DNA of 35,135 nucleotides, taken from positions 1 through 35,135 of the forward strand of contig JAUSPO010000125.1 in the NCBI GenBank assembly GCA_030656575.1, written 5' to 3'. Below the pieces are notes generated by a model. It worked only from the letters and a program-made list of their open reading frames with translations, had not been told where the DNA came from and made no database searches. The position numbers were made by a program, and so were the translations under genes. Origin of the DNA: Bacillota bacterium. Its GTDB lineage: Bacteria > Bacillota > Dethiobacteria > DTU022 > UBA8154. Numbering within the stretch: the first letter of the stretch is position 1; each line of letters opens with the position of its first letter. This document shows, one piece after another, positions 600-34,152 of the stretch.

Positions 600-814
600 A
601 AGAGAGTGGAAAAAGATGAACAAAGAGAATGAAGGTGCCTATTTGATATAAGTGTGACGCTTTTCCTTGTACCAGAAATGCCACGGGAACGGGGTTGTTA
701 AGACAACCACGGGGGACGGTCTTCTAGGATAATCTCGGGACACAATGAAAATTATTGGCAAATGATTACTCCCTACGAGAAAGGGAGTAAGTCCACAAAA
801 ATATTTACACTCCC
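600..814. other. Intergenic stretch with a truncated ORF start, a RAYT-repeat end and a hairpin
   Basis: Contains a short ORF at 616-651 (M-N-K-E-N-E-G-A-Y-L-I), probably the stump of a deleted downstream gene. It also holds a RAYT-family left end at 727-757 and a perfect 9-bp inverted repeat (TTACTCCCT at 766-774, AGGGAGTAA at 782-790). The hairpin lies just past the stop of the minus-strand nuclease gene, but it has no T-run, so it is only a weak terminator candidate. Confidence 0.45.
727..757 (+). repeat. RAYT-family repeat, left end only
   Basis: GGATAATCTCGGGACACA followed by ATGAAAATTATTGG. It matches the left ends seen near 7467, 16412, 18543, 19755, 23121, 31955 and 34043. No transposase start or right end follows, so this is an orphan terminus. 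Confidence 0.75.
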
Positions 815-4016: not shown

Positions 4017-6015
4017 TGCGCCAGGAAAAGGCTGGTAGAAGGGAATTCGAAAGATGAAACTTCTTGTAGGAACCTAGTGGGTGAGAAACCCATCCGGTAA
4101 AGTTTGGCCAACAGCCGGGAGCGAGTCTTGCGCGGTGTTGGGGTGACCCACAGCGTGAAGCGTAGACAACGAGTATAAAAGCTGTGTGATTGAGCCTCGA
4201 AAGGGCGTCGTTGGAGCCTTCGTTGTCGAAATGGCGGGGGCAGCACTGACATGCTGAATGGCCTGGCATGAGCAGTCCGACCGGGGTCGAAGAGCAGGGC
4301 AGATATACAAAGGTTCCCCAGAAACCTGGGAAAATCTGTATGTTTCCATCTTGTTATCCTGATGGGGGATCCAGGTAAAAGCTCCTGGCTTCTCGCAGTT
4401 TCACTCCTACGGCGGGAAGAGACGCGAAAGCGTAAACCACAAACAAAGCGAGTGAGGGGATGGTACTGACAAGGAGAAGGAAACGAACCGAGTCAGGATG
4501 AACTGCAGAAGTCTTAGCACCTCCATAGTACCAAGGAAACAGGGGAACTCACCCGAGAGGACCCTGTGGAGGGAAGGGAGATGCCTTAAAATGGAACCGT
4601 TGGGAGGAAACACAATGAGTGCGAGGGAACTCAGTAACGTGTCAACGAAACAACAACGGATAGCGGAACTGGCCAAACAACTACCGGATGTCTGTTTTAC
4701 TTCGCTAACATACCACATGGACTTGGAATGGATGCGGGAAGCCTACCGGCAAACCCGAAAAGACGGGGCAGTGGGGGTTGATCAGGTAACGGCAGAAGAG
4801 TATGAAGCCAACCTTGATGAAAACCTGGCGAACCTCTTGGAGCAAGCCAAGGCGGGCACGTACTTTGCGCCGCCAGTAAGGCGAGTATATATACCCAAAG
4901 GTGGCAACCGGGAAGAGATGCGCCCAATCGGGATACCGACCCTGGAAGACAAAGTGCTACAGCGAGCAGTAAAGATGTTGCTGGAACCACTTTTCGAGCA
5001 GGACTTTCTAGAATGCTCATACGGTTTTCGACCGGGGAGATCACCGCATCAGGCCCTGCAATCAATTTGGCAGGAGATTATGGGTATGCGCGGAGGGTGG
5101 ATCATCGATGTTGACATACAGAAGTATTTTGACACGATAGACCATGGACATCTCAGGGAAATAATTGGTCAGCGGGTGAATGACGGAGTAATACGAAGAC
5201 TGATAGGCAAGTGGCTAAACGCGGGTGTTCAAGAAGATGGAAACATTAGTTTTCCAGAAACTGGAAGCCCCCAGGGCGGAGTCATATCACCGCTTCTCAG
5301 CAACATCTATTTGCACAAGGTGCTGGATGTATGGTTCAAGGAGATGGTCAAACCACGCATGAAAGGGAAAGTTTTCATGACGAGGTTCGCTGATGATGTA
5401 ATCCTCGGCTTCGAGAAGGAAGAGGATGCACGGAAAGTGCTAGAAGTATTACCCAAGCGTTGTGCAAAGTTTGGGCTGACACTACATCCGGAGAAGACTC
5501 GCCTAGTACAATTTATAAGTCCACAGCGGGGTTCGGAAAAGCCAAGCTCATTTGACTTCCTGGGGTTCACCCACTACTGGGACAGGAGCAGGAAGAAGAA
5601 TTGGATAGTTAAACGGAAGACAGAAAAGAAACGCCTGAGCAGGAAAATCAAAGAGGTAAGGGAATGGTGCCGCCAAAACCGGCATGGACCTATTCGTGAA
5701 CAACATGCTACCCTTGTAAAGAAGCTAAAGGGCCATTTCCAGTATTATGGGATCACCAATAACGGTCCGAGCTTGGGATACTTCCGCATTGAACTAATAC
5801 GGGCATGGCGAAAATGGCTAAACAGAAGGACCCATAAAGGTAGATACACGTGGGAAGCGTTTCTTGAAATGTTGCGCTTTCTACCACTACCTCAAGTCAG
5901 GATAGTTCACTCCGCTTATTCTGCGAAACCGTGATAAGAGGAACCGGATGCGAGAAACTCGCACGTCCGGGTCTGTGGGGGTTCCGGGCGAGTAATTGCC
6001 CGGTTCTACCCGGAC
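4015..6015 (+). mobile_element. Group II intron with its own reverse transcriptase, inserted in darT
   Basis: The 5' end is near GTTGCGCCAGG (consensus GTGYG; one extra T here). The 3' part holds domain V (34 nt at 5941-5974, with GCGAGAAACTCGC as apical hairpin) and domain VI (about 5978-6008, a GGGC/GCCC stem with a bulged A at 6008). By analogy with the second intron in this window, whose ends are exact, the 3' end is about 6015. Removing 4017-6015 or 4014-6015 joins the darT frames with the spacing found in other DarT proteins; the 5' edge is uncertain by a few bases. About 2.0 kb, noticeably richer in GC than its neighbours, as expected of a recent arrival. Confidence 0.88.
4615..5934 (+). 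CDS. ltrA: Group II intron reverse transcriptase/maturase
   Basis: 439 aa from ATG 4615, chosen because GGGAGG lies 7 nt upstream; the frame is open back to 4498. Fingers-palm reverse transcriptase: G-A-V-G-V-D (RT1), R-P-I-G-I-P (RT2), Y-G-F-R-P-G-R-S (RT3), D-V-D-I-Q-K-Y-F-D (RT4), G-S-P-Q-G-G-V-I-S-P (RT5) and the catalytic F-A-D-D at about 258-261. A maturase X domain (about 310-430, with G-H-F-Q-Y-Y-G) follows. There is no HNH endonuclease domain, so mobility should rely on ssDNA at forks or on relaxed targets. It assists splicing of the host intron and reverse-transcribes it into new sites. No lesion seen; the element looks active. Confidence 0.95.
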   Translation: MSARELSNVSTKQQRIAELAKQLPDVCFTSLTYHMDLEWMREAYRQTRKDGAVGVDQVTAEEYEANLDENLANLLEQAKAGTYFAPPVRRVYIPKGGNREEMRPIGIPTLEDKVLQRAVKMLLEPLFEQDFLECSYGFRPGRSPHQALQSIWQEIMGMRGGWIIDVDIQKYFDTIDHGHLREIIGQRVNDGVIRRLIGKWLNAGVQEDGNISFPETGSPQGGVISPLLSNIYLHKVLDVWFKEMVKPRMKGKVFMTRFADDVILGFEKEEDARKVLEVLPKRCAKFGLTLHPEKTRLVQFISPQRGSEKPSSFDFLGFTHYWDRSRKKNWIVKRKTEKKRLSRKIKEVREWCRQNRHGPIREQHATLVKKLKGHFQYYGITNNGPSLGYFRIELIRAWRKWLNRRTHKGRYTWEAFLEMLRFLPLPQVRIVHSAYSAKP

Positions 6016-16346: not shown

Positions 16347-16411
16347 ACCCCCGTTACTCCTATGATATTATATGTAATATTAAATTGTCAAGGGCGGAAA
16401 TTGTTTATGGT

Positions 16412-16636
16412 ATAATTTCGGGACACAAAGAGAATTATTGCCTGCTATTTAATTGGGGATAATAATGTAGCTATGCTAAGAATAGCCAGAGTTGTAGTTC
16501 CGGGAATGCCACACCACGTTACGCAATTTGGAATCGTCTTTTCCAACTCTGATCTTGCAGAAAGATTTGATATGGATTTTATGACACGCAAGCGAGGCCC
16601 GAAAGGATCCTGGAAACATAAAAAGTATCCTTAAAG
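16412..16636 (+). repeat. RAYT element with internal deletion and in-frame mini-ORF
   Basis: Left end TATAATTTCGGGACACA at 16412, then the transposase start ATG 16473: M-L-R-I-A-R-V-V-V-P-G-M-P-H-H-V-T-Q, the signature N-terminus of REP-associated tyrosine transposases (Y1_Tnp). After 22 residues it jumps in frame to the C-terminus (S-D-L-A-E-R-F-D-M-D-F then R-K-R-G-P-K-G-S-W-K), stopping at 16634. The His-x-His is present (P-H-H-V), but the catalytic Tyr region is deleted. It serves as the key copy for recognising the other remnants. The right terminal repeat is missing. Confidence 0.82.
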
Positions 16637-16827: not shown

Positions 16828-18542
16828 GCAGCATGGTTGTCCTAGGTTATAAAGAGTTTATGGAAGAAGCACGGATACGTTTAGAAAATCTCTCTTCAGA
16901 AAATCTCTTAAAACTGATTTTGAATTGGGCCAGCGAAGAACATCCTTCAAAAAGACAAGAGTTTTTGGATAAGTTAATTCTACCTAAGCAGGAAAAAGAT
17001 GCTGTGCTCGATGTAGAAACGCTGTTGGAAGAGATAGAGTCTTTTGCACAGAGAGTTGATGATGGTGAATATTGCGACGGATGGGGCTGGGATGATGATA
17101 TCCATGAAGAAAGAGATTGGGGCGGTGAAAGTTGGGCAGAGGAGATGGACGATTTTTTTCTGGAAGCCAGAAGAATATTGCTGCAAGAGCAGTTTAAAAC
17201 GGCTGAGGAAGTTTATAGAAGACTGTTTGACATATTGAAGATGGGACAGGAACCGGGACATCTTCCTGGCGATCCCGATTTTCGTAATCAGTTAAAGGTA
17301 GATATGGATGAACATGTTGCGCTCTTTCTAAGGTCTGTATATATGAATACGCCTACCGAAGAGCGTTCTGTTTCTTTGTATAAATCAATGAATGAATATA
17401 GATATATGGCTAGTAGAATCAAATTTAAAAACATAATTAATGCTTTAGACTCTGTGTTACCAGATTTGAATTTGTTTTTAGCAGAATGGATTGAGTTTTT
17501 GAAAGACCAAAGGCAAATGGGTGCCAGCGAGTCGTATTTTACTAGCGAGTTACTTAGGGAAGCTGTTTTTTTAAAGGGTGGTATTTCTGCTATTTCAGAA
17601 TTTGCACGACAATACGGAGATAAATTTCCCAGGGCATACATTGATTGGATTACAGCTTTAGAGATGGAAGAGGATATAGATTTGGTCCTTAAGGTGGCCA
17701 GAGAAGGTTTGTCCAGGATTCCCCGGGATTATACAATAAGGGCTGAAGTAGCAGAAACCATTTCAAGAATAGGGGAAAAGTTGAAAGATGATAAGTTGAA
17801 ACTGGAAGCGTATAGAGAATGTATGTATTCCAAACCTTCTATGGAATATTTGCTTGACTTATATTATGCTGCTATTGAATGCTGTTGCTTTGAAGAGATC
17901 CGGGATGAAGCTGAACAAAGGATTATGGAACTTCGAGGTAAAAGCAGGGTGCCTGATAATAACTACTACGGTAATGAGCGAAATACATCTTATGCCTCAG
18001 AGGCGGTTTTAATCAACGCCCTACTTTTAGGCGGAAGATATGAAAAGGTATTTGAGATGTGTAAAGGCAAAGGTCCGCTTGGGTGGAGTTCCAGTGATAA
18101 TCCAAAACCTCTCTTTGTCACTTTTATGATGACGATCTTATCAAAGGAAGGAAGTTATGCTAAAATTCTCAGCAAGCAATGGGATGATACGATTGGAAAT
18201 ACGGGCTATTATCCAAGTAAGGAGTATATTGAAAAGTATCGGAAAATTGTTGGTCTTATGATAGAGTCAATAAAGCTAACTAGTGAGCAAGAGGAACTTT
18301 TTATGAAATGGTGTATGAATGCAATTGAAGGCAGGATAGTAGCAATTGTCAGTAACCAGTATCGGGGAAGTTATCATAAAGCGGCAGGGTTGTTGGTTGC
18401 AATGGCTGAAACTTTGGCGAACAGGGGGAAAAAGCAGGAAGGTATGGATTTAGTTGAAAGATATAGAAGTAAATATCCCAGGCATACAGCTTTCAGAAGA
18501 GAGGTTACCCAAGCAGTACAAATATCTAGTTTGTTTGGATAA
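16824..18542 (+). CDS. TPR-like protein resembling the C-terminal part of SWIM zinc-finger proteins
   Basis: 572 aa, soluble, mostly helical. The opening L-E-N-L-S-S-E-N-L-L-K-L-I-L-N-W and the acidic W-G-W-D-D-D segment followed by A-E-E-V-Y-R-R-L-F-D-I-L resemble the helical-repeat region that follows the zinc finger in bacterial SWIM proteins; no SWIM finger (C-x-C-x-n-C-x-H) is present, so the protein is either a SWIM-less paralogue or 5'-shortened. AAAGGAAAGG precedes the ATG, which overlaps the stop of the upstream ORF. The stop TAA lies at the edge of a RAYT repeat (GGA-TAA), so the last residues may be altered. Role unknown. Confidence 0.6.
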   Translation: MSSMVVLGYKEFMEEARIRLENLSSENLLKLILNWASEEHPSKRQEFLDKLILPKQEKDAVLDVETLLEEIESFAQRVDDGEYCDGWGWDDDIHEERDWGGESWAEEMDDFFLEARRILLQEQFKTAEEVYRRLFDILKMGQEPGHLPGDPDFRNQLKVDMDEHVALFLRSVYMNTPTEERSVSLYKSMNEYRYMASRIKFKNIINALDSVLPDLNLFLAEWIEFLKDQRQMGASESYFTSELLREAVFLKGGISAISEFARQYGDKFPRAYIDWITALEMEEDIDLVLKVAREGLSRIPRDYTIRAEVAETISRIGEKLKDDKLKLEAYRECMYSKPSMEYLLDLYYAAIECCCFEEIRDEAEQRIMELRGKSRVPDNNYYGNERNTSYASEAVLINALLLGGRYEKVFEMCKGKGPLGWSSSDNPKPLFVTFMMTILSKEGSYAKILSKQWDDTIGNTGYYPSKEYIEKYRKIVGLMIESIKLTSEQEELFMKWCMNAIEGRIVAIVSNQYRGSYHKAAGLLVAMAETLANRGKKQEGMDLVERYRSKYPRHTAFRREVTQAVQISSLFG

Positions 18543-18807
18543 TAATTTCGGGACACAATGAAAATTATTGAATATAATTGAAACTAAATAATATGTAACA
18601 AAGCATCATATCCAAACGGGGACTTGTCTTAGGGGTTAATTCTGATCTTGAAGAAAGATTTGATATGGATATTAAGGCACTCCCGAAAGGAACCCTGCAA
18701 ACATAAAAAAAGTTCCTACTGATAACCATTGAGCATTTGAGTAATGCAGTGTGGATTGTACCCAATGCAAAAGAATAAAAATTATTAATGTGTCCCGAAA
18801 TTACCCC
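18541..18807 (+). repeat. RAYT-derived MITE with both ends
   Basis: About 267 bp. Left end TAATTTCGGGACACAATG, right end TGTGTCCCGAAATTACCCC, forming terminal inverted repeats. Inside are the 20-base block shared with 3254-3273 and a decayed transposase C-terminus (GATCTTGAAGAAAGATTTGA). No transposase ORF. It sits between the 572-aa gene and the truncated symporter and supplies the latter's apparent 5' coding sequence (a GTG at 18751). Confidence 0.8.
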
Positions 18808-19404
18808 AGCTATATGAAAAAAGACGATAGCCAGCAGCTCATACCCAACGGAGTGGTAATTACTTTGGCAGATGCCTTGGTAGCCGTTTTGGCAGGTTTT
18901 ATGATATTTCCTGCAGTCTTTGCATTTGGCCTGGAGCCTTCAGGAGGGCCGGGACTGGTATTTGTCACCATGCCAAATGTATTTAATATGATGCCGGGCG
19001 GCCTGTTCTGGGGGACCCTGTTCTACTTGGGGTTCTATATTGCAGCCTTTACATCAGCCATTGCCGTCTGGGAGGCGGTCATAGCATTTTTAAAAGACGA
19101 GTTTGGCTTTACCCGGGCCAAGTCCGCAATAATTACCCTGATCCTTGTGGTAATCATCGGCTTTTCCTCCATTATTTCCATGGAGATATTTGAGTTTATC
19201 GACTACGTGGAGAACAATATAATTCTCATATTCGGTGCATTGTTCATGGCCATCTTCGTAGGATGGGTCTGGGGTATTGAAAACTTCTCAAAAGAAGTTG
19301 CCGTCCAAAAAGAAAGTACCAAGAAGCTCTGGGCATTTCTACTGAAATTCCTGGCTCCTATTGTCATTATCGTCCTTGCCCTTAACCTGTTTGGTATACT
19401 GTAA
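18808..19404 (+). pseudogene. Sodium:neurotransmitter (SNF) symporter, C-terminal half
   Basis: About 198 residues of real homology. It starts in a loop (M-K-K-D-D-S-Q-Q-L-I-P-N-G), then membrane helices beginning L-A-D-A-L-V-A-V-L-A-G-F-M-I-F-P-A-V-F-A-F with the family motif G-P-G-L-V-F-V-T-M-P, and three or four further helices to the end. SNF symporters are about 450 aa with 11-12 helices and use Na+ to import amino acids or amines; the N-terminal half, including most Na+ ligands, is missing. The frame continues upstream into the RAYT MITE, a chance fusion. A strong terminator follows. Confidence 0.85.
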
Positions 19405-19806: not shown

Positions 19807-20045
19807 ATGGGGTTAAATCCCTCGGCTTTAGCCGAAACCCTTAGGTTAACCTGGTGAGGCGTATTTTCACCTCTAGTAAAAAAGATACTTTAACTAAGAG
19901 GTGAGTGGAAATGCAAAATTACAGAAGGAGTTCCCATGCAACTTATGATATCAAATATCATTTGGTATGGATAACAAAATACAGAAAACCGGTACTAGTG
20001 AGGAGATTAGCAGAAAGAACAAGAGAACTAAACCGTTGGAGGTGA
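19807..20045 (+). mobile_element. tnpA: IS200/IS605-family element, left end with truncated tnpA
   Basis: The left end carries the hairpin CCTCGGCTTTAGCCGA (about 19819-19836) typical of subterminal structures cut by TnpA. tnpA begins at ATG 19911 (GAGGTGAGTGG upstream): Y-R-R-S-S-H-A-T-Y-D-I-K-Y-H-L-V-W-I-T-K-Y-R-K, the standard IS200 N-terminus. It is lost after about 40 codons (R-E-L-N), before the H-x-H and the catalytic Tyr. No right end follows. Dead element. Confidence 0.85.
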
Positions 20046-20290
20046 TTAATGGATATAAAAGTCTTTATTATTTAAAGTTTGAAGTGTCGTCACTTTTTAA
20101 TTGGCCAGTTTGGTTAGACGTTAGAGGATATTATAAAGTAGATAATTTTGAAGCTTTAAAAATTGCACAAACATTTGCTCATGACAAATACAAAAAATTC
20201 CATAGCGACAATTTAAAACTTATTGTTGAAAAGTTTTATGATCATGGTTCGTTTTGTAAAATTTATAATTTTATTTGGAGGAAGAATTAA
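20042..20290 (+). CDS. Hypothetical protein fragment downstream of the IS200 stump
   Basis: 82 residues if started at GTG 20042 (G-Y-K-S-L-Y-Y-L-K-F-E-V then F-N-W-P-V-W-L-D-V-R-G-Y-Y-K). A strong GGAGGTGATTA motif is followed by ATG 20053, but that frame stops after 8 codons, so the original gene may be frameshifted here. Aromatic-rich, no recognised family. It could be the body of a small gene whose start was scrambled by the IS200 event. Confidence 0.35.
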   Translation: MINGYKSLYYLKFEVSSLFNWPVWLDVRGYYKVDNFEALKIAQTFAHDKYKKFHSDNLKLIVEKFYDHGSFCKIYNFIWRKN

Positions 20291-23120: not shown

Positions 23121-23910
23121 GATAATTTCGGGACACAAGTGTGCCACGAACACACTGACAGATAGTGTGGAACTGTACAGAAGATGGGGGTAGGCCCCTC
23201 AAAGCCGGCTTGCAGGAGCAGGCTTTAAACCACCTTAAGCTGCGCAGGTAAAGAGCCTGGGTGGTGAGCGTTAAGGAAAAGGCAGGATGAAACCTGTCAG
23301 GTATGGTATAAGGAGACGAGCGCGAGCGAACCGCTGACGAAGTGTCGAAACCAATTTGATGGCGTCAAAACCGGGGGGGGTGTGTTAATCCGGGATAAGT
23401 CTGGAGGAAACCTGCTTACTGTCCAGTCGGCGTCCGGCATAAAGGCGGCGTGAACTTATACTAGGCTTCTGTATGGAACGTGGGAACCTGTCGCTCCGAT
23501 GCTAAGGGAGAAATCCGATAGGGAGGCCCCCTTTAGGATGAGAGTACCGATGCGGGGCACAGGGGCGGAGCAGCTCGTATTAGTGAGGAAGGCTCGTAAT
23601 TGAGCTGGAGCGAAGGGGTTGCACAGTCTGGCCTTATTCTAAAGGTCAACCATAAAATGGGAGGAGCCAGGTGAATAAAGCAAAACCGTTTAGAACGGTT
23701 TAGACTGTAAGAGCCGTATGACGCGAGAGTGTCATTTACGGTTCCGTGAGAGCGTGGGGGTGAAACTCCCCCACGCCACTCGACTGAAAATTATTGACCA
23801 ACATAAAAAACTCCTTCTAAATAACCCCGTTGAGCACTCGATTAACATTAGAATATTTGTACCCAAAACGTATAGGAAACATTAAAAATTATATTGTGTA
23901 CCGATTATCC
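23121..23910 (+). repeat. RAYT-derived MITE interrupted by a group II intron
   Basis: Left end GGATAATTTCGGGACACAA (23120-23138), then the intron, then TGAAAATTATTGACC at 23785 continuing the repeat exactly as in uninterrupted copies. It ends with the degenerate right terminal repeat TTGTGTACCGATTATCC at 23910. Without the intron the element is about 145 bp. Confidence 0.85.
23139..23784 (+). ncRNA. ORF-less group II intron (ribozyme only, 646 nt)
   Basis: Begins GTGTGCCACGAACACAC (consensus GTGYG) and ends CCACTCGAC. Domain V at 23711-23744 is the canonical 34-nt hairpin: GAGCCGTATGAC, GCGAGAGT, ending TTTACGGTTC, with the AGC catalytic triad. Domain VI (about 23750-23778) is a long GCGTGGGGG/CCCCCACGC stem followed by the bulged A at 23778. 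The ends are certain because flanking bases join to give the intact repeat seen elsewhere. No reverse-transcriptase frame is present, so it must be mobilised and perhaps spliced in trans. TGTGTT at 23381 is a possible EBS1 for GACACA in the exon. Confidence 0.9.
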
Positions 23911-25161: not shown

Positions 25162-26031
25162 TTGGCTAAAGCATCAGCCCACTATACTCCAAATACCTTT
25201 GATAGTGCCGCTTTTCGTAAGGTTTTGGAACGCCTTGCTACTGCGTGGGGCAGCAATGTTGAAGATTTAGGGTTTAAAGCCTTTTATTCTCAAGGACAGG
25301 CTTCTGACGAAAAAGAAATTACGTTGGGTGAAGCGGAGACATTATCAGGTATTGTCCCGCCTCTGGATCACTTAATGATTAGCTATGGGATTGGAACGAC
25401 TTCCTATCGTACTGCTCACTTTATTCGAAGGCTTGATGGTATGGAGATCACTGTCTATGCAGATGACATGATTAGTTCTAATAGCTTGCTAAAATATATT
25501 GTAGAAGTACTCAGCCTCTCCCCATATGAACTTCGGTTCTCGGACGAACTGCTTGAACGCCGTATCGATGATATTGAATCACGTGTTACGGCATTGGAGA
25601 CTACTGTAGCCGAGACGCCACTTAAGTGCTTTTTATCGTTTCGTTTCTCAGATACTTCGTCTGCTATCGCCCGAGAGGTTGAACAGTTTCTTTCTCTCCT
25701 CGGGATAGAAGTTGTTTCAGGAATTGAGTATGAACCACGTAGAGTTGAAGACAAGGTACGAGATCGAATCTTAAGTGGTGTCGATTTCGTCGTGTATCTG
25801 ATCACGTCGGAAGGTGAGTCATCATGGCTTAGAGATGAATTAGCAACGGCAACTGCACAAGGCGCGATTCCTATACCTCTAATTGAAGACGGTTGCATAT
25901 TAGAAGAGGGACTACTAGGTAATATTGAATATATCCCATTTTCGCCCGGTCACCCAGGGGACTCTTGGATACGCCTAGTTCAGGCCGTACGTTACATTGA
26001 AACAGTAAAATTTGGTCGCCACGGTCATTAA
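25162..26031 (+). CDS. TIR-domain protein with an uncharacterised N-terminal domain
   Basis: 289 aa from TTG 25162 with GGAGGGAAGG immediately upstream. Residues about 1-120 form an alpha/beta domain I do not recognise (P-N-T-F-D-S-A-A-F-R-K-V-L-E-R-L). A short coiled coil follows (R-R-I-D-D-I-E-S-R-V-T-A-L-E-T). Residues about 152-285 are TIR-like: C-F-L-S-F-R-F-S-D, a BB-loop region, D-F-V-V-Y-L-I-T-S-E and S-S-W-L-R-D-E-L-A-T-A with the position of the catalytic glutamate. Bacterial TIR proteins in defence islands cleave NAD+ or make cyclic ADP-ribose when phage is sensed. It lies about 370 bp upstream of Hachiman and is intact; likely a single-gene defence effector. Confidence 0.8.
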   Translation: MAKASAHYTPNTFDSAAFRKVLERLATAWGSNVEDLGFKAFYSQGQASDEKEITLGEAETLSGIVPPLDHLMISYGIGTTSYRTAHFIRRLDGMEITVYADDMISSNSLLKYIVEVLSLSPYELRFSDELLERRIDDIESRVTALETTVAETPLKCFLSFRFSDTSSAIAREVEQFLSLLGIEVVSGIEYEPRRVEDKVRDRILSGVDFVVYLITSEGESSWLRDELATATAQGAIPIPLIEDGCILEEGLLGNIEYIPFSPGHPGDSWIRLVQAVRYIETVKFGRHGH

Positions 26032-26399: not shown

Positions 26400-27209
26400 A
26401 TGAATTCACCTGAATATGTCAAATGGTTTGTGGAAGAAAGCACCGTCACTTTGGAAGATGGGGCTCTGCTTTCATGCTACCGATTAGATTACACGGTGGA
26501 TGAAGCTGTTTATTGTGACTGGGCACTGCATCTTCGCCAGCACTATGAATCTGATGATGAATTAGCTGAATCTCTACAAACAACAGGATTATCAGCGGAA
26601 GAATATCTTAGGAGTAATGTAATCCCACAAAAAAGCGACGAGTTTGGTCCTACATCGCGTTCTAACGATTTTACTGAAATAATGATTTCTGATTTGTTGG
26701 AGTTCATACATAAGTATAATGTGCCGCGTTGTAAACAACGTAACCGATCAGGAAAATCTTTGAGTGAACACGGCACAGATATTCTTGCTTATAAATTTGA
26801 CAAGCAGGATAAGTCGCCAAGCACAAAGGATGAATTGCTGGCTGTCGAAGTAAAGGCAGGATTGTCATCTGATGAATATGCCCCGATAAGTAAAGCCGTG
26901 ACTGATTCGCACAAGTATGATGAAGTCAGGCATTCGCATACCCTCAATTATTATAGAAAGAAATTGCGTAGCATTAACAACCATCAGCAGGCTGACGAGA
27001 TTTCCCGTTTTCAGCAAAAGTCAGAGCATGATTTTATTATCACCTATATAGCTGCCGCGATTATCAATTGTGAGGTAATTCCTAACAATGTCGTTTTGGG
27101 CATCAAAGGCGAAGATCTGGAACTGCGCCAAGACAACAAAGTATTCCTGGTTCACGGAAAAAAACTAATGGTTTTGGCACATGACATATTTGAGAGGTGT
27201 GTGAAATGA
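26400..27209 (+). CDS. hamA: Hachiman system nuclease HamA (DUF1837)
   Basis: 269 aa. DUF1837 (HamA) is the effector of the Hachiman anti-phage system; in studied examples it is a PD-(D/E)xK nuclease held inactive by HamB and released on DNA damage or infection. Here H-G-T-D-I-L-A-Y-K (Asp127) and L-L-A-V-E-V-K-A-G (Glu150, Lys152) give the D..ExK site. The region N-D-F-T-E-I-M-I-S-D-L-L-E upstream is the usual family helix. The ATG has AGAGG upstream, and its stop overlaps the hamB start (ATGA), so the two proteins are translated in step. Full length, no lesion. Confidence 0.9.
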   Translation: MNSPEYVKWFVEESTVTLEDGALLSCYRLDYTVDEAVYCDWALHLRQHYESDDELAESLQTTGLSAEEYLRSNVIPQKSDEFGPTSRSNDFTEIMISDLLEFIHKYNVPRCKQRNRSGKSLSEHGTDILAYKFDKQDKSPSTKDELLAVEVKAGLSSDEYAPISKAVTDSHKYDEVRHSHTLNYYRKKLRSINNHQQADEISRFQQKSEHDFIITYIAAAIINCEVIPNNVVLGIKGEDLELRQDNKVFLVHGKKLMVLAHDIFERCVK

Positions 27210-30200
27210 TTTTTGATAGTCGATCAAATTATATGCTCAAATATGAAAAATCTAAATCCAAGCTGGTTGAGTTTAATGTGGAAGAAAAAGATTACCCGAA
27301 ATTCCCTCTAAACCCTGATGATTTGACTTATACTACGCTTTTTGCTCTATCACGCTATTGCGAAGAAATCATTGAAAACCCATCAACACCACAGTTGCCA
27401 GAACTAAAAGCAGAATTAACTGCTGTTTCGCAATATTATGATTCAACAGTAAAAACGCAACTTCGACAGGAATATAGCATGCTGTTTTTGCTGTTGGGTT
27501 CAACTGCATACTTTTTATCAGAAAACTTTGGAAGCGCCAAGGTTCTTATTGAACAGATTGATGAATGGATACTCAAAGATAGCGTTATGACGCTGCTATA
27601 TACCACATTGCGTTTTCTGCTTGCTGGAGAATGGATGGAGGTTCCAACAAAAAGGAAATCCTACCGTCAATATTTAGATAGCCTAAAAAGTCATTTTGAA
27701 ACAGGCGATTCTCCTGAAACTATCTTTGATGCTCTACGCAGGATGCGCAGCAGAATATATCAATCCACCAACGTAACTGCAGTCAGCTATATTGATTTTC
27801 TTTTTTCTGTGATAATCTGCTCAGTAGATCATTCTGCATGGATTTTATTACCGGAGTACTCTCATGCAAAATTTGAACAATGGAAAGACTATTTGTCCAA
27901 ATCGGACAGTGTAAAATTGTTGTGGCCTGCACAAAAAGCTATTCTGCAAGCCGGTGCCCTCACTGGGAATGACCTCGTTGTCCCTCTACCCACTGGAGTA
28001 GGTAAAACAAAAAGCATCGAAATTCTTTTGCGAGCCAAATTTATGGACAGAGGAACTTGCATTGCTATTATTATTGCCCCTTTGCGTGCATTGTGTAATG
28101 AGATTACTGCGGACTTAACCTCTGCTTTGGCAGACGAGGCGGTCATAAATCAGTTCACCGACACCACACAAGAAGATTTTGATCTTGAACTGCTTTTCAA
28201 CACAAAGTATGTATTTATTTGCACTCCGGAGAAGTTTTCGTACATTCATCGACATGAGCCTGATTTTCTTGCATCCATTCAGTTTTTTCTATTCGATGAG
28301 GCTCATTTATTTGACGATACTTCAAGAGGTGCGCAATATGAATTGCTGGTATCTGAAATAGCCAAAAGTCGGAATGATTCTGCACAAATGGTATTGTTTT
28401 CAGCCGTCCTATCAAATGCAAATCAAATTAGTGAATGGCTATTTGATGATGAAATGGCGACAATCGACTATTCATTGGTAAAATCAACGGAAAAGTCGAT
28501 AGGCTTCCTTTCTTCTGATCAAACAATACATTACTACGAAAAAGACGACATGGCAGAAGAAAGTTTTTATGTTCCTAAAAGTATAGCTTTTACACAGCTT
28601 CAACTTCGAGGGAAAGAAACTAAGCAACGGATTTTCCCCGAAAAAAAAGCGCAAGATATAGCAATATATTATGCAAACAAATTGTGTAGCCAAGGAGGTG
28701 CGGCAATTTACGCTGGTCAGGTGCGTAGTATTCCTCCAATCATGCGCCGAATCGTTGAAATAAGTGAGCGTGGCTATGATTTGTCTAACCTGCTTATAAA
28801 TGGAAACCCAAATGAAGTTGTTAAATTATCCAACCTATTTGCACTCCACTATGGAGAAAATTTTGAACTTACACAAGCATCCAAATTAGGGGTACTCCCG
28901 CATTATGCAAATCTGCCTACGGGGATAAAAATGGCAACAGAACATGCCTTGCGCAAAAGGCACGTTTCTTTTGTTGTTTGCACAACAACATTAGCAGAAG
29001 GTGTAAACATCCCGATAAAATATCTATTTCTCACCACTTTCAGTCTTGGAAATACCAGCGTGCAAATACGAAAAATGCAAAATCTGGTGGGCAGAACAGC
29101 TAGATCGGGTATACATACAGAGGGCAGTGCCATAATCACCGACTTCAAATTCTATGATAAGCGTTTAGAATGGCGAGGCGGTGGTACATATAAGTGGGCC
29201 GACTGCAAAAAAATGTTTGATTATGGCAATACCGAAGCATGTTTAAGTGCTATTTTGTCATTGGTAAGTAGTTTGCAAATAGACTATAAGAGTCACTATA
29301 AAGGTAGTGCTTTGATTTCTTATCTTATAGAAAATTATAATAAACCATCGTGTTTTCCAACACTGATAAGCACTATTCAAGAGGGTTATAGAAAGCATGT
29401 GTCGGATGAAAGAAGGTATGACCGTTACAGTCCTGAAATCGAGCTAAAAATCACACAATTAGAGCATGTAGTCGAAAGCATTGAAAATTATTTATGCTAC
29501 ATATATAACTTACAGCAAAATCCCGATCAATTCTTTGATTCAGTAGAAACACTTGTCGCTCAAACATTTGCATATTATTTGGGGGACGAGGAGCAGAAAA
29601 AAGCATTGAGGAAGATCTTTCATTTAATCGCTCAAAAAATTGTGTCTGATGTTAAGCCAGAAAAGGCGGCGTACTTTGCCAGGTCACTTTATGGTATTGA
29701 TATATCAAAACAAATATTAAATTGGGTCGATGAAAAGATTGAGAACCTTAAAGATTGCTCAACTGCTCAGCTTCTCGAGGCAATGGCTAACCTTTTTATG
29801 CAACTGTTTCATGATAAAGCAAAGGTGGATATTGATGAACTAATAGCTGTTTCACGACTATGGGTTGCAGGCGAACCCTATGTAAAGATTTACAACGACC
29901 TGAAAGAGATACTTCAAATTAGCCAGATTGAAAAGCTATGTAGTAATACTCTCTCATATCATCTTTGCTTTCTGATCGGAAATATCTTGGATGCTGTTGG
30001 AGATCGTGCAGATGAATTGGCTGAAAAGTTAGCCATACTGCAAAAAAAGATTAAGTATGGGGTGCCCTCCCGTTTTCAAATCCTTGTTTGTGAAAATATA
30101 TTCGATGATAGAATTATCGCCAAACAGCTCGATGAATTGATTGGGCAAACACTTACAACAGATAAAGAGTTTAAAAACTATATGACTATTAAGCGGAATG

Positions 30201-30268
30201 AGATTTTACAAATCCTTAAGTCCTATCCTGACTACTTTAGTTATAAATTTCGTATGTATGTCAGATAA
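27206..30268 (+). CDS. hamB: Hachiman system helicase HamB
   Basis: 1020 aa from ATG 27206 (GAGAGGTG upstream). SF2 helicase: Walker A P-T-G-V-G-K-T-K at about 260, motif Ia A-P-L-R-A-L, motif II D-E-A-H at about 364, S-A-V in motif III, and the C-lobe with T-T-L-A-E-G-V-N-I-P and motif VI Q-N-L-V-G-R-T-A-R-S-G at about 627. The first 240 residues and the C-terminal 350 are helical accessory regions. HamB scans DNA and gates the HamA nuclease. Length is normal for the family and all motifs are present. Followed by 180 bp of non-coding DNA and a broken SF1 helicase gene. Confidence 0.93.
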   Translation: MIFDSRSNYMLKYEKSKSKLVEFNVEEKDYPKFPLNPDDLTYTTLFALSRYCEEIIENPSTPQLPELKAELTAVSQYYDSTVKTQLRQEYSMLFLLLGSTAYFLSENFGSAKVLIEQIDEWILKDSVMTLLYTTLRFLLAGEWMEVPTKRKSYRQYLDSLKSHFETGDSPETIFDALRRMRSRIYQSTNVTAVSYIDFLFSVIICSVDHSAWILLPEYSHAKFEQWKDYLSKSDSVKLLWPAQKAILQAGALTGNDLVVPLPTGVGKTKSIEILLRAKFMDRGTCIAIIIAPLRALCNEITADLTSALADEAVINQFTDTTQEDFDLELLFNTKYVFICTPEKFSYIHRHEPDFLASIQFFLFDEAHLFDDTSRGAQYELLVSEIAKSRNDSAQMVLFSAVLSNANQISEWLFDDEMATIDYSLVKSTEKSIGFLSSDQTIHYYEKDDMAEESFYVPKSIAFTQLQLRGKETKQRIFPEKKAQDIAIYYANKLCSQGGAAIYAGQVRSIPPIMRRIVEISERGYDLSNLLINGNPNEVVKLSNLFALHYGENFELTQASKLGVLPHYANLPTGIKMATEHALRKRHVSFVVCTTTLAEGVNIPIKYLFLTTFSLGNTSVQIRKMQNLVGRTARSGIHTEGSAIITDFKFYDKRLEWRGGGTYKWADCKKMFDYGNTEACLSAILSLVSSLQIDYKSHYKGSALISYLIENYNKPSCFPTLISTIQEGYRKHVSDERRYDRYSPEIELKITQLEHVVESIENYLCYIYNLQQNPDQFFDSVETLVAQTFAYYLGDEEQKKALRKIFHLIAQKIVSDVKPEKAAYFARSLYGIDISKQILNWVDEKIENLKDCSTAQLLEAMANLFMQLFHDKAKVDIDELIAVSRLWVAGEPYVKIYNDLKEILQISQIEKLCSNTLSYHLCFLIGNILDAVGDRADELAEKLAILQKKIKYGVPSRFQILVCENIFDDRIIAKQLDELIGQTLTTDKEFKNYMTIKRNEILQILKSYPDYFSYKFRMYVR

Positions 30269-30447: not shown

Positions 30448-31948
30448 ATGAATATTGAAAACCACCTCATTCTTATAAAAGGTGAGGAAAAGACTGAAGA
30501 GATAAGCCATTGTGAATATGCAAATGGCAGGTGGCAGGTTAAATTCGTAAGAGGCAGGGTTTATTCTTACAATTATTCCAGTGTTCAATGGTTAAAGAAT
30601 CCGGTTTCCTTTAATGGGGAAACGACAGTCGTATATGAAAAAAACCAGCCTTTATCGGGTGTTGATAAAATATTTGATTTTGGGGCCTATATACGGATTT
30701 GTTTTGTGACAGGTTATCAAAAACTGTACCGCAGCCATGAATTAACTGTTGAGCAAAGCTTCCTCACAAATCCAAATGCACACAATTGCTTTGAATATTT
30801 AAAGAAACTGGCAGAGAAGGTCAGTGTGGTCAACGAGGAAGACGGTAGTTTTCTAAGCAGGCAGTATCAAAAAATATCCTGCGTTATTCCCAGTAGCGTT
30901 TTAGCAAAATATCTATATCCATCTGAACTGAACACCCCTCTACGTGGGCAGATGCGAATATTTCCATTCGGCTTTAATTTAAGCCAAAAAGAAGCGACAG
31001 AGAAAGCCTTGAGCGAACAGATAAGTGTCATTGAAGGCCCCCCCGGAACAGGTAAAACCCAAACCATCCTAAACATCATCGCTAATGCAATTATAAATAG
31101 AAAAACAGTAGCAGATTGACGTGATATTGGAGGAAATACTTCCAGGGTTAAACGGTGATCATAATAAGGATTCGATCGGTATTATTTCACCTTATCGAAT
31201 GCAAACAGATAAACTGAAAGAGTCTATAGGAACACAAGACTTCGAGGTAGACACTGTGCATAAATACCAGGGCCGTGAAAGGGATGTAATTATTCTCACC
31301 ACAGTTGTGAATGAAATAAATGAATTTGTGAATAATCCTAACTTACTTAATGTGGCCGTTTCCCGTGCGGTGGACAAACTAATTGTTGTTGTGTCAGATA
31401 GCGAAAAGAACGACAATTCGAATATTGGAGATTTGGTAAGATACATAGAGTATAACAATTTTGAGATCATCAATAGCGGTATATATTCGGTCTTTGATTT
31501 ATTGTACCATAGCTATTCAGAACGATTAGTCGCAGTGATGGAGAAAAGAAAAAAAGTATCATCCTATGAATCGGAAAATCTGATGAACGTGGTGATTGAA
31601 AAAGTCCTAAGCCTGCCGGAGTTTCATAATCTTGGCCGGGTGATGCATCAACCCCTTAGAATGCTCATTCGAAACCCGGAAAAGATGGATGAGCAAGAGT
31701 GTAGATATGCCATGAATGTTTTAACACATACGGATTTCGTCATCTTCAATAAGCTGGATAAAATGCCTGTGTTGGTGGTGGAGGTGGATGGTTATGCGTT
31801 CCATGCCAATAATCCAAAGCAGCTTGAGCGGGATAAGATGAAGGATACCATTTTGCAGAAGTATGGTATCCCCATATTAAGAATGAAAACCAATGAAAGC
31901 CGCGAGGAAACAAGGTTGCGTAATAAGCTTAACCAAATTTTAAATTGA
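30448..31948 (+). pseudogene. SF1 (DNA2/UPF1-type) helicase with DUF2726 nuclease domain, internally deleted
   Basis: The N-terminal part (30448-31119) ends with N-L-S-Q-K-E-A and Walker A E-G-P-P-G-T-G-K-T-Q-T-I-L-N-I-I. A few codons later (about 31115) the sequence jumps, with a change of frame, to the second RecA lobe: I-G-I-I-S-P-Y-R-M-Q, V-D-T-V-H-K-Y-Q-G-R-E-R-D and N-V-A-V-S-R-A-V-D-K-L. It ends with a DUF2726/Vsr-like nuclease: V-L-V-V-E-V-D-G-Y-A-F-H. Family proteins exceed 900 aa; motifs Ia to III are gone. Often found in defence islands; dead here. Its stop is directly followed by a RAYT left end. Confidence 0.82.
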
Positions 31949-31951
31949 TAG

Positions 31952-32105
31952 TTTGGGGACACAATGAAAATTATTGACAGTAATTGAAAACTTGAATATA
32001 GAGTAGCTATGCCAAGAATAGCCAAAGTTGTAGGGCAGGTTCCTGAGGCTCTGCAGGGAGTTTATAAAATTAGCGGTTATGGCGTCGGGTTTAATCCGCC
32101 ATAAC
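31952..32105 (+). repeat. RAYT element remnant: left end, transposase start and inverted repeat
   Basis: GTTTGGGGACACAATGAAAA followed by the transposase start ATG 32009 (M-P-R-I-A-K-V-V), cut after 8 residues. GTTATGGCG (32076-32084) and CGCCATAAC (32097-32105) form a perfect 9-bp inverted repeat that could be a REP-like hairpin. Confidence 0.72.
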
Positions 32106-34042: not shown

Positions 34043-34122
34043 GGGGATAATTTCGGGACACAAAGAAAATTATTGACTGCTATTTAATTTGAAAATAAAT
34101 AATGTGTTCCGAAATTATCCCC
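34043..34122. repeat. 80-bp minimal RAYT-derived MITE
   Basis: GGGGATAATTTCGGGACACA at the left and TGTGTTCCGAAATTATCCCC at the right form near-perfect 20-bp terminal inverted repeats around a 40-bp AT-rich core (AAGAAAATTATTGACTGCTA and onwards). A partial extra copy of the end (TATAATTTCGG, 34033-34043) directly precedes it. It is the smallest complete member of the family here. Confidence 0.85.
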
Positions 34123-34152
34123 TACTTTATTAGGCCGAAAAGCTTGTGAATT

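Follow-up and report, generated by a model that had tools for sequence, protein, structure and literature searches.

A class D group II intron that has lost its reverse-transcriptase gene in a RAYT-derived REP of a Bacillota genome: probably a decaying member of a lineage that tends to land in such repeats

The DNA analysed here, called the window, is a stretch of 35,135 nucleotides from a Bacillota bacterium and corresponds to contig C66 of a draft genome of 2.99 Mb in 195 contigs that is 99% complete. On its forward strand, positions 23139-23784 form a complete group II intron of 646 nt without a reverse-transcriptase gene. The intron lies inside a short repeat, a REP, of which uninterrupted copies are found elsewhere in the window. 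The features of the window are listed below (+, forward strand).

727..757, +: uninterrupted REP (empty site), matching the joined flanks of the intron
4084-6015: second group II intron (type D1D4-6), encoding an intact group II reverse transcriptase of 478 aa (TIGR04416) at 4498-5934
16411..16634, +: REP with a RAYT gene that carries an internal deletion (MLRIARVVVPGMPHHVTQ... fused to the C-terminal part, from 16473), the same protein as the RAYT of genome G020
18541..18571, +: uninterrupted REP (empty site) by the repeat pattern, at the left end of a RAYT-derived element that spans about 270 bp, to 18810
23121..23138, +: 5' exon, the left part of the REP, GATAATTTCGGGACACAA; its first 17 nt match the repeat pattern exactly
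23124..23127, +: putative IBS2 core AATT, read from the sequence in the register of CGAACT/AGTTTG in a G011 copy
23133..23138, +: IBS1 ACACAA, placed by the EBS1 register; the first five of six positions pair
23139..23784, +: group II intron of 646 nt without an ORF, RmInt1-like class D (IIB), from Rfam RF01999 and RF00029 and similarity to S. meliloti; ends fixed by the empty repeats
23353..23356, +: putative EBS2 core AATT, read from the sequence in an alignment of ten introns
23380..23385, +: EBS1 GTGTGT, in the register of the EBS1 of eight relatives
23660..23693, +: remnant of the lost IEP gene, GGAGGA and GTG AAT AAA GCA AAA CCG TTT AG (VNKAKPF...), aligning with the start of the IEP in G181 (MNKTKPFRI) and in S. 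meliloti (MDRAKPYDI), which lies in the same position
23711..23744, +: domain V, which retains the AGC triad and the GAGA loop and has a TT bulge for CG, from RF00029 and relatives
23745..23784, +: domain VI (RF00029); read from the sequence, the branch point is predicted to be the A at 23778, 7 nt away from the 3' end
23785..23798, +: 3' exon, the right part of the REP, TGAAAATTATTGAC, in agreement with the empty copies
31947..31977, +: uninterrupted REP, followed by a translated remnant of a RAYT start (MPRIAKVV at 32009)
34044..34124, +: palindromic REP pair of 81 bp, MITE-like, by the repeat pattern

Two Rfam families match the intron above the curators' cut-offs, namely RF01999 (D1-D4-2), for the 5' half of domain I, at 23186-23302 with 114.6 bits (gathering 36) and RF00029 (domains V/VI) at 23709-23784 with 51.4 bits (gathering 40). 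The junctions carry the GUGYG start and AY end of group II introns, with GTGTG at the 5' end and CTCGAC at the 3' end. When the intron is removed, the joined flanks read ATAATTTCGGGACACAA/TGAAAATTATTGAC and are identical to the uninterrupted copy at about 18541 (through TGAAAATTATTGA), with one or two mismatches to the empty copies at about 727 and 31947. Both junctions are unambiguous, as a G follows the 5' match where the empty sites have T, and a C precedes the 3' match where they have A. The exon-joined product expected on splicing is, as predicted from sequence, ATAATTTCGGGACACAATGAAAATT. No ORF of at least 90 aa was found inside 23139-23784. The predicted RNA fold is much stronger than that of shuffled sequences (z = -6.1), and 141 of the 146 consensus pairs from an alignment of ten related introns are formed, 77 of them with two-sided compensation in at least one sequence each. 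The original prediction of an ORF-less group II intron with natural empty sites in the same window was thus borne out by the Rfam matches, the fold and the lack of an ORF; its two ends proved right to the base, and the fold and consensus pairs speak against the failure to fit a group II structure that it had named as a possible refutation.

The host repeat is a RAYT-derived REP. In genome G020 (contig C186, L158:777-1466), an intact RAYT-type Y1 transposase of 229 aa (MPRIARVVVPGFPHHVMQRGNRR...; Pfam Y1_Tnp, 49.2 bits) is flanked by a copy of AAAATTTCGGGACACAATGAAAATTATT upstream and an inverted copy downstream. The window itself holds REPs and RAYT gene remnants and no intact RAYT; these remnants beside REPs, together with the intact gene between inverted copies, indicate the origin of the repeat and uphold the RAYT derivation proposed earlier. 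REPs of the GGGGACGGTTCTTCTGTC type also flank Y1 genes elsewhere in the window's own genome. The REP stem has 8 bp (AATAATTT/AAATTATT), with the intron located in the loop, and the hairpin is weak: its DNA folds at -2.2 kcal/mol, a value that 14 of 200 shuffled sequences match. The repeat family is present in 18 of the 200 genomes searched, with at most 40 copies in one. A search of plasmids with the 36-nt repeat gave a partial match of 21 nt only, and nothing useful was found in the literature on RAYT in Firmicutes. The palindromic copies at 34044-34124 and 18541-18810 had suggested a DDE-type MITE with terminal inverted repeats, an assignment that was dropped on account of the RAYT starts and the intact RAYT between inverted repeats. 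An IS200-type TnpA fragment adjoins a REP copy at 19941-20290; as parent of the repeat, the IS200-like fragment at 19941-20030 was rejected.

Ten of the 16 matches to the REP pattern in the genome lie in the window and three on contig C111, so this REP family clusters in an apparent foreign or defence-gene island. The window also has a defence-island flavour in its genes, with a Mrr-type restriction endonuclease, a weak TIR domain, a DEAD helicase and an AAA_12/DUF2726 protein (815-1513, 25162-26031, 27197-30268, 31121-31948).

By sequence comparison, the intron is an RmInt1-like member of bacterial class D, a designation of RmInt1-like introns taken from PMC5894124. Among blastn matches in a plasmid collection, the best-matching annotated relatives included ltrA-bearing introns of S. 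meliloti, Rhizobium and Mesorhizobium, and the identity to those of S. meliloti was 79% over 86% of the intron. Domain I is of the class D type, as RF01999 is also matched by IEP-bearing introns of S. meliloti (123 bits). A tree of the ribozymes grouped the window intron with other copies from Bacillota (98/94). A search of phages gave one partial match only.

Of the class D reverse transcriptase in domain IV only the first codons remain, and the window intron is a deletion derivative rather than an autonomous class D member. In these rhizobial relatives and in those from Bacillota the IEP starts with MNKTKPFRI, MDRAKPYDI or similar just 3' of GGGAGGA; in the window, GGGAGGAGCCAG is followed by the codons listed above and then by the base of domain V. 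This ribosome-binding site and gene start indicate that the intron arose by internal deletion of the ORF. A partial ORF-less copy in G054 has a gene remnant with the same 5' breakpoint, CCGTTTAG, and in both ORF-less G011 copies the remnant is shorter than in the window. In R. leguminosarum (L173), the same kind of remnant is found independently. ORF-less class D introns in a Methylomonas plasmid (L174 1450-2107) and a Ca. Syntrophoarchaeum MAG (L076 1900-2549) have nearly identical short domains IV and are a separate ORF-less lineage; the Ca. Syntrophoarchaeum copy sits in an apparent RT gene. In pSymB of S. meliloti ml59 (L175 714-4435), two class D introns stand in direct tandem, the second beginning exactly where the first ends.

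The pairing of TGTGTT (23381) with GACACA that had been proposed earlier is real, and lies in EBS1 GTGTGT (23380-23385) and IBS1 ACACAA, where five of six positions pair and a G.A mismatch occupies -1. A single hairpin loop of domain I carries EBS1, and in the same register five or six of six positions are paired in relatives (6/6 for AACCGT and ACGGTT in G011). Nine introns, which among them have eight different IBS1 sequences, pair at 52 of 54 positions, a value that shuffling of exons among the nine introns reached 4 times in 100,000, and positions -2, -3 and -4 covary on both sides. EBS1 varies along with the target. The putative EBS2 of the window intron offers four A-U pairs only. Alignment column 331 complements the +1 base in eight of nine introns; it is not claimed as EBS3, as S. 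meliloti fails and all columns had been searched.

The insertion sites of relatives were obtained by locating 5' ends from intron sequence alone and reading the exons afterwards; for the shortest 5' relics, clade membership rests on similarity of the first 20-150 nt. GGGAC stands at exactly -9 to -5 in nine of 13 lineage 5' ends (G181 excluded), and one further end is off by one. Targets include the following (^, insertion site).

ATAATTTCGGGACACAA^: REP target in the window
TTTCGGGACACGA, ACACGA^: REP target of the same family as the window's, at a related intron 5' end in a Syntrophomonadaceae MAG (L073)
GGGGACGGTT^CTTTTTCTTGC: REP target in G011, with two ORF-less copies; similar 5' halves in G016 and G111
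GGGGACGGGG^: REP target in G062, matching a REP that adjoins a RAYT gene of the window's genome
AGGGACGTTC^: target in a Pelotomaculum MAG (L074)

A third G011 copy was added by pattern scans at the order and class level, which overlapped. G181 holds four identical class D introns with an intact protein (RVT_1 and GIIM domains), all in AACCAGGGGGACGGTT^C and with 3' exons such as CCTCTGGTT. As all four IEP-bearing copies sit in REPs, ORF-bearing class D introns do home to REPs, and those without the ORF follow. These sequences support a tendency of the whole lineage to land in RAYT REPs. Outside the clade, several related introns have non-REP targets. In several copies (L049, L050, L059, L062, L091), the intron 5' end is kept beside the REP and the remainder is lost; incomplete reverse transcription would be expected to truncate the 5' side instead, and a later deletion is assumed.

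A D1D4-6 intron of the window's genome (159.5 bits) also abuts a RAYT REP, ACAAGGGGACGGTTC^GTGCGCCGGGA, one base from the class D site (L208 C105:1-350, L113 C99). The 3' exons of several multicopy introns (3' ends L007-L015) begin with TCYTGTCTG or TCYTGCTTC, which is the other half of such REPs. We infer that these 5' and 3' ends belong to one family.

In domain V, the triad, loop and helices of the window intron are kept and the bulge reads TT versus CG in most relatives, which makes activity of this copy doubtful. One of the ORF-less G011 copies lacks a bulge base and the other has a stem mismatch, so that all three full-length ORF-less copies of the clade have an abnormal domain V, each in a different way. 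A domain V search by loose patterns returned noise only. From sequence, these defects read as decay after loss of selection, and the window intron probably belongs to a class D lineage that homes to REPs, as a member that has lost its ORF and is decaying.

Spread by homing to other repeat copies had been suggested, and a search for other RAYT repeats carrying the intron proposed. In the genome assembly there is one copy only, and such spread is not supported there; at the level of the lineage, landing in RAYT REPs is well supported, given the position of GGGAC and the related 5' end that L073 has in this repeat family. The genome assembly, in which five of 40 sampled contigs, all below 3 kb, read N, yielded no class D maturase. 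The sole RT is that of the second window intron, which is of another type, and it shares 35% identity with the class D protein of G181. None of the genome's other strong RF00029 matches has a class D-like 3' end, and the search for a class D maturase in G011 returned short RT fragments only. The genome has 12 further strong intron 3' ends, each no more than about 140 nt from the end of a contig, which indicates that multicopy introns were collapsed and left unassembled. With collapsed introns and small contigs that read N, the absence of a helper maturase is not conclusive. The original prediction of a candidate for trans-mobilisation stands as plausible, and its driver did not turn up.

Three other explanations bear on the history of this copy. 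An assembly chimera or a chance resemblance would suit a fragmented draft genome in which introns often stand at contig ends, but this intron lies mid-contig, both of its ends coincide exactly with the repeat boundaries and with end motifs of group II introns, and other assemblies show this arrangement too; such an artefact is hardly credible. It is somewhat unlikely that a full-length, protein-encoding intron homed into the REP, later lost its gene in place and was never helped in trans. The intact, in-frame gene start, the homing of IEP-bearing relatives themselves to REPs and the different extents of the deletion in the window and in G011 would agree with such a course. However, the gene remnant in G054, from another family, stops at the same breakpoint, which suggests an older common deletion, and the two ORF-less G011 copies are 92% identical at two sites, so the ORF-less form seems to have multiplied, at least there.

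That the intron is active now, splicing and being mobilised in trans by a class D maturase missing from the assembly, we consider quite unlikely. It would be favoured by the conserved consensus pairs, by five of six EBS1 positions, by the kept lower stem, triad and loop of domain V and the kept stem of domain VI, and by the collapsed intron bodies and N-reading contigs of the assembly. The same order also holds an IEP-bearing relative with a similar 3' end (L038), and trans-driven ORF-less introns are documented in T. elongatus (PMC2882425). Against it stand the single copy, the finding that no other strong RF00029 match in the genome has a class D-like 3' end, and the difference of both domain V bulge bases from most relatives.

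We therefore favour, with good though not full confidence, an internally deleted RmInt1-like class D intron from a lineage homing to GGGAC-containing RAYT REPs, which would have come by retrohoming and is now probably drifting. The intron RNA would have paired with the REP via EBS1 and EBS2 and reverse spliced 4 nt 3' of GGGAC. A class D reverse transcriptase may then have copied it, supplied by an ORF-bearing relative, or by an ORF-bearing ancestor if the ORF was lost in place. The domain V bulge of this copy is now substituted, and the copy probably drifts. As the REP is non-coding and downstream of a gene, insertion or loss of splicing would cost the host little. The mismatch at -1, the four A-U pairs of EBS2, the single copy, the class D maturase sought in vain and the non-REP targets outside the clade are counterpoints; given the abnormal domain V of all three full-length ORF-less copies, recent mobility is unproven.

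Group II introns need targets that are numerous and harmless, and RAYT REPs are both. REP hairpins may also expose single strands, which would suit class D introns with a protein lacking an endonuclease domain, as is the case for the RmInt1 protein (PMC5894124). A broader possibility, which we put forward tentatively and hold to be slightly less than even, is that group II introns of these anaerobic Bacillota generally find safe harbours in RAYT REPs: the class D lineage would track diverging REPs via EBS1, repeatedly shed its gene and persist as ORF-less forms driven by relatives, and the D1D4-6 type would independently use the REP one base away. In the intron set, target repeats and EBS1 sequences form natural pairs for studying target change, and its ORF-bearing and ORF-less relatives are material for testing help in trans.

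Among known systems, RmInt1 and RmInt2 of Sinorhizobium meliloti (class D) share the ribozyme type, with about 79% nucleotide identity to S. meliloti ltrA-bearing introns, have the gene start at the same place in domain IV as the window remnant, and home into mobile elements, namely ISRm2011-2 for RmInt1 and the ISRm17 inverted repeats for RmInt2 (PMC5894124). The window intron differs in its deleted gene, in its target, a RAYT REP instead of ISRm2011-2 or ISRm17, and in the phylum of its host. The ORF-less TeI3 introns of Thermosynechococcus elongatus resemble it in internal gene deletion, N-terminal remnant and ORF-bearing relatives in the family, and there mobilisation in trans was proven (PMC2882425); they belong to a different intron class and have many copies with drivers proven by experiment, whereas the window has one copy and no driver shown. 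As to RAYT/REP elements, the host repeat corresponds to the REP that flanks a Y1 transposase gene in a related genome, with REPs and gene remnants alone retained in the window. REPs are known targets of insertion sequences, and two of nine group II intron copies listed in P. putida KT2440 are REP-associated (PMC1525189); in the literature searched, REP-associated group II introns were mentioned for P. putida only. REP-targeting elements of Pseudomonas and enterobacteria likewise use REP hairpins as landing sites, whereas most members of the window lineage sit at one fixed REP position with an EBS1 that matches the REP. Within that literature, a class D lineage that keeps to one RAYT-REP position in several REP families, and whose EBS1 changes accordingly, is a new variation on known systems.
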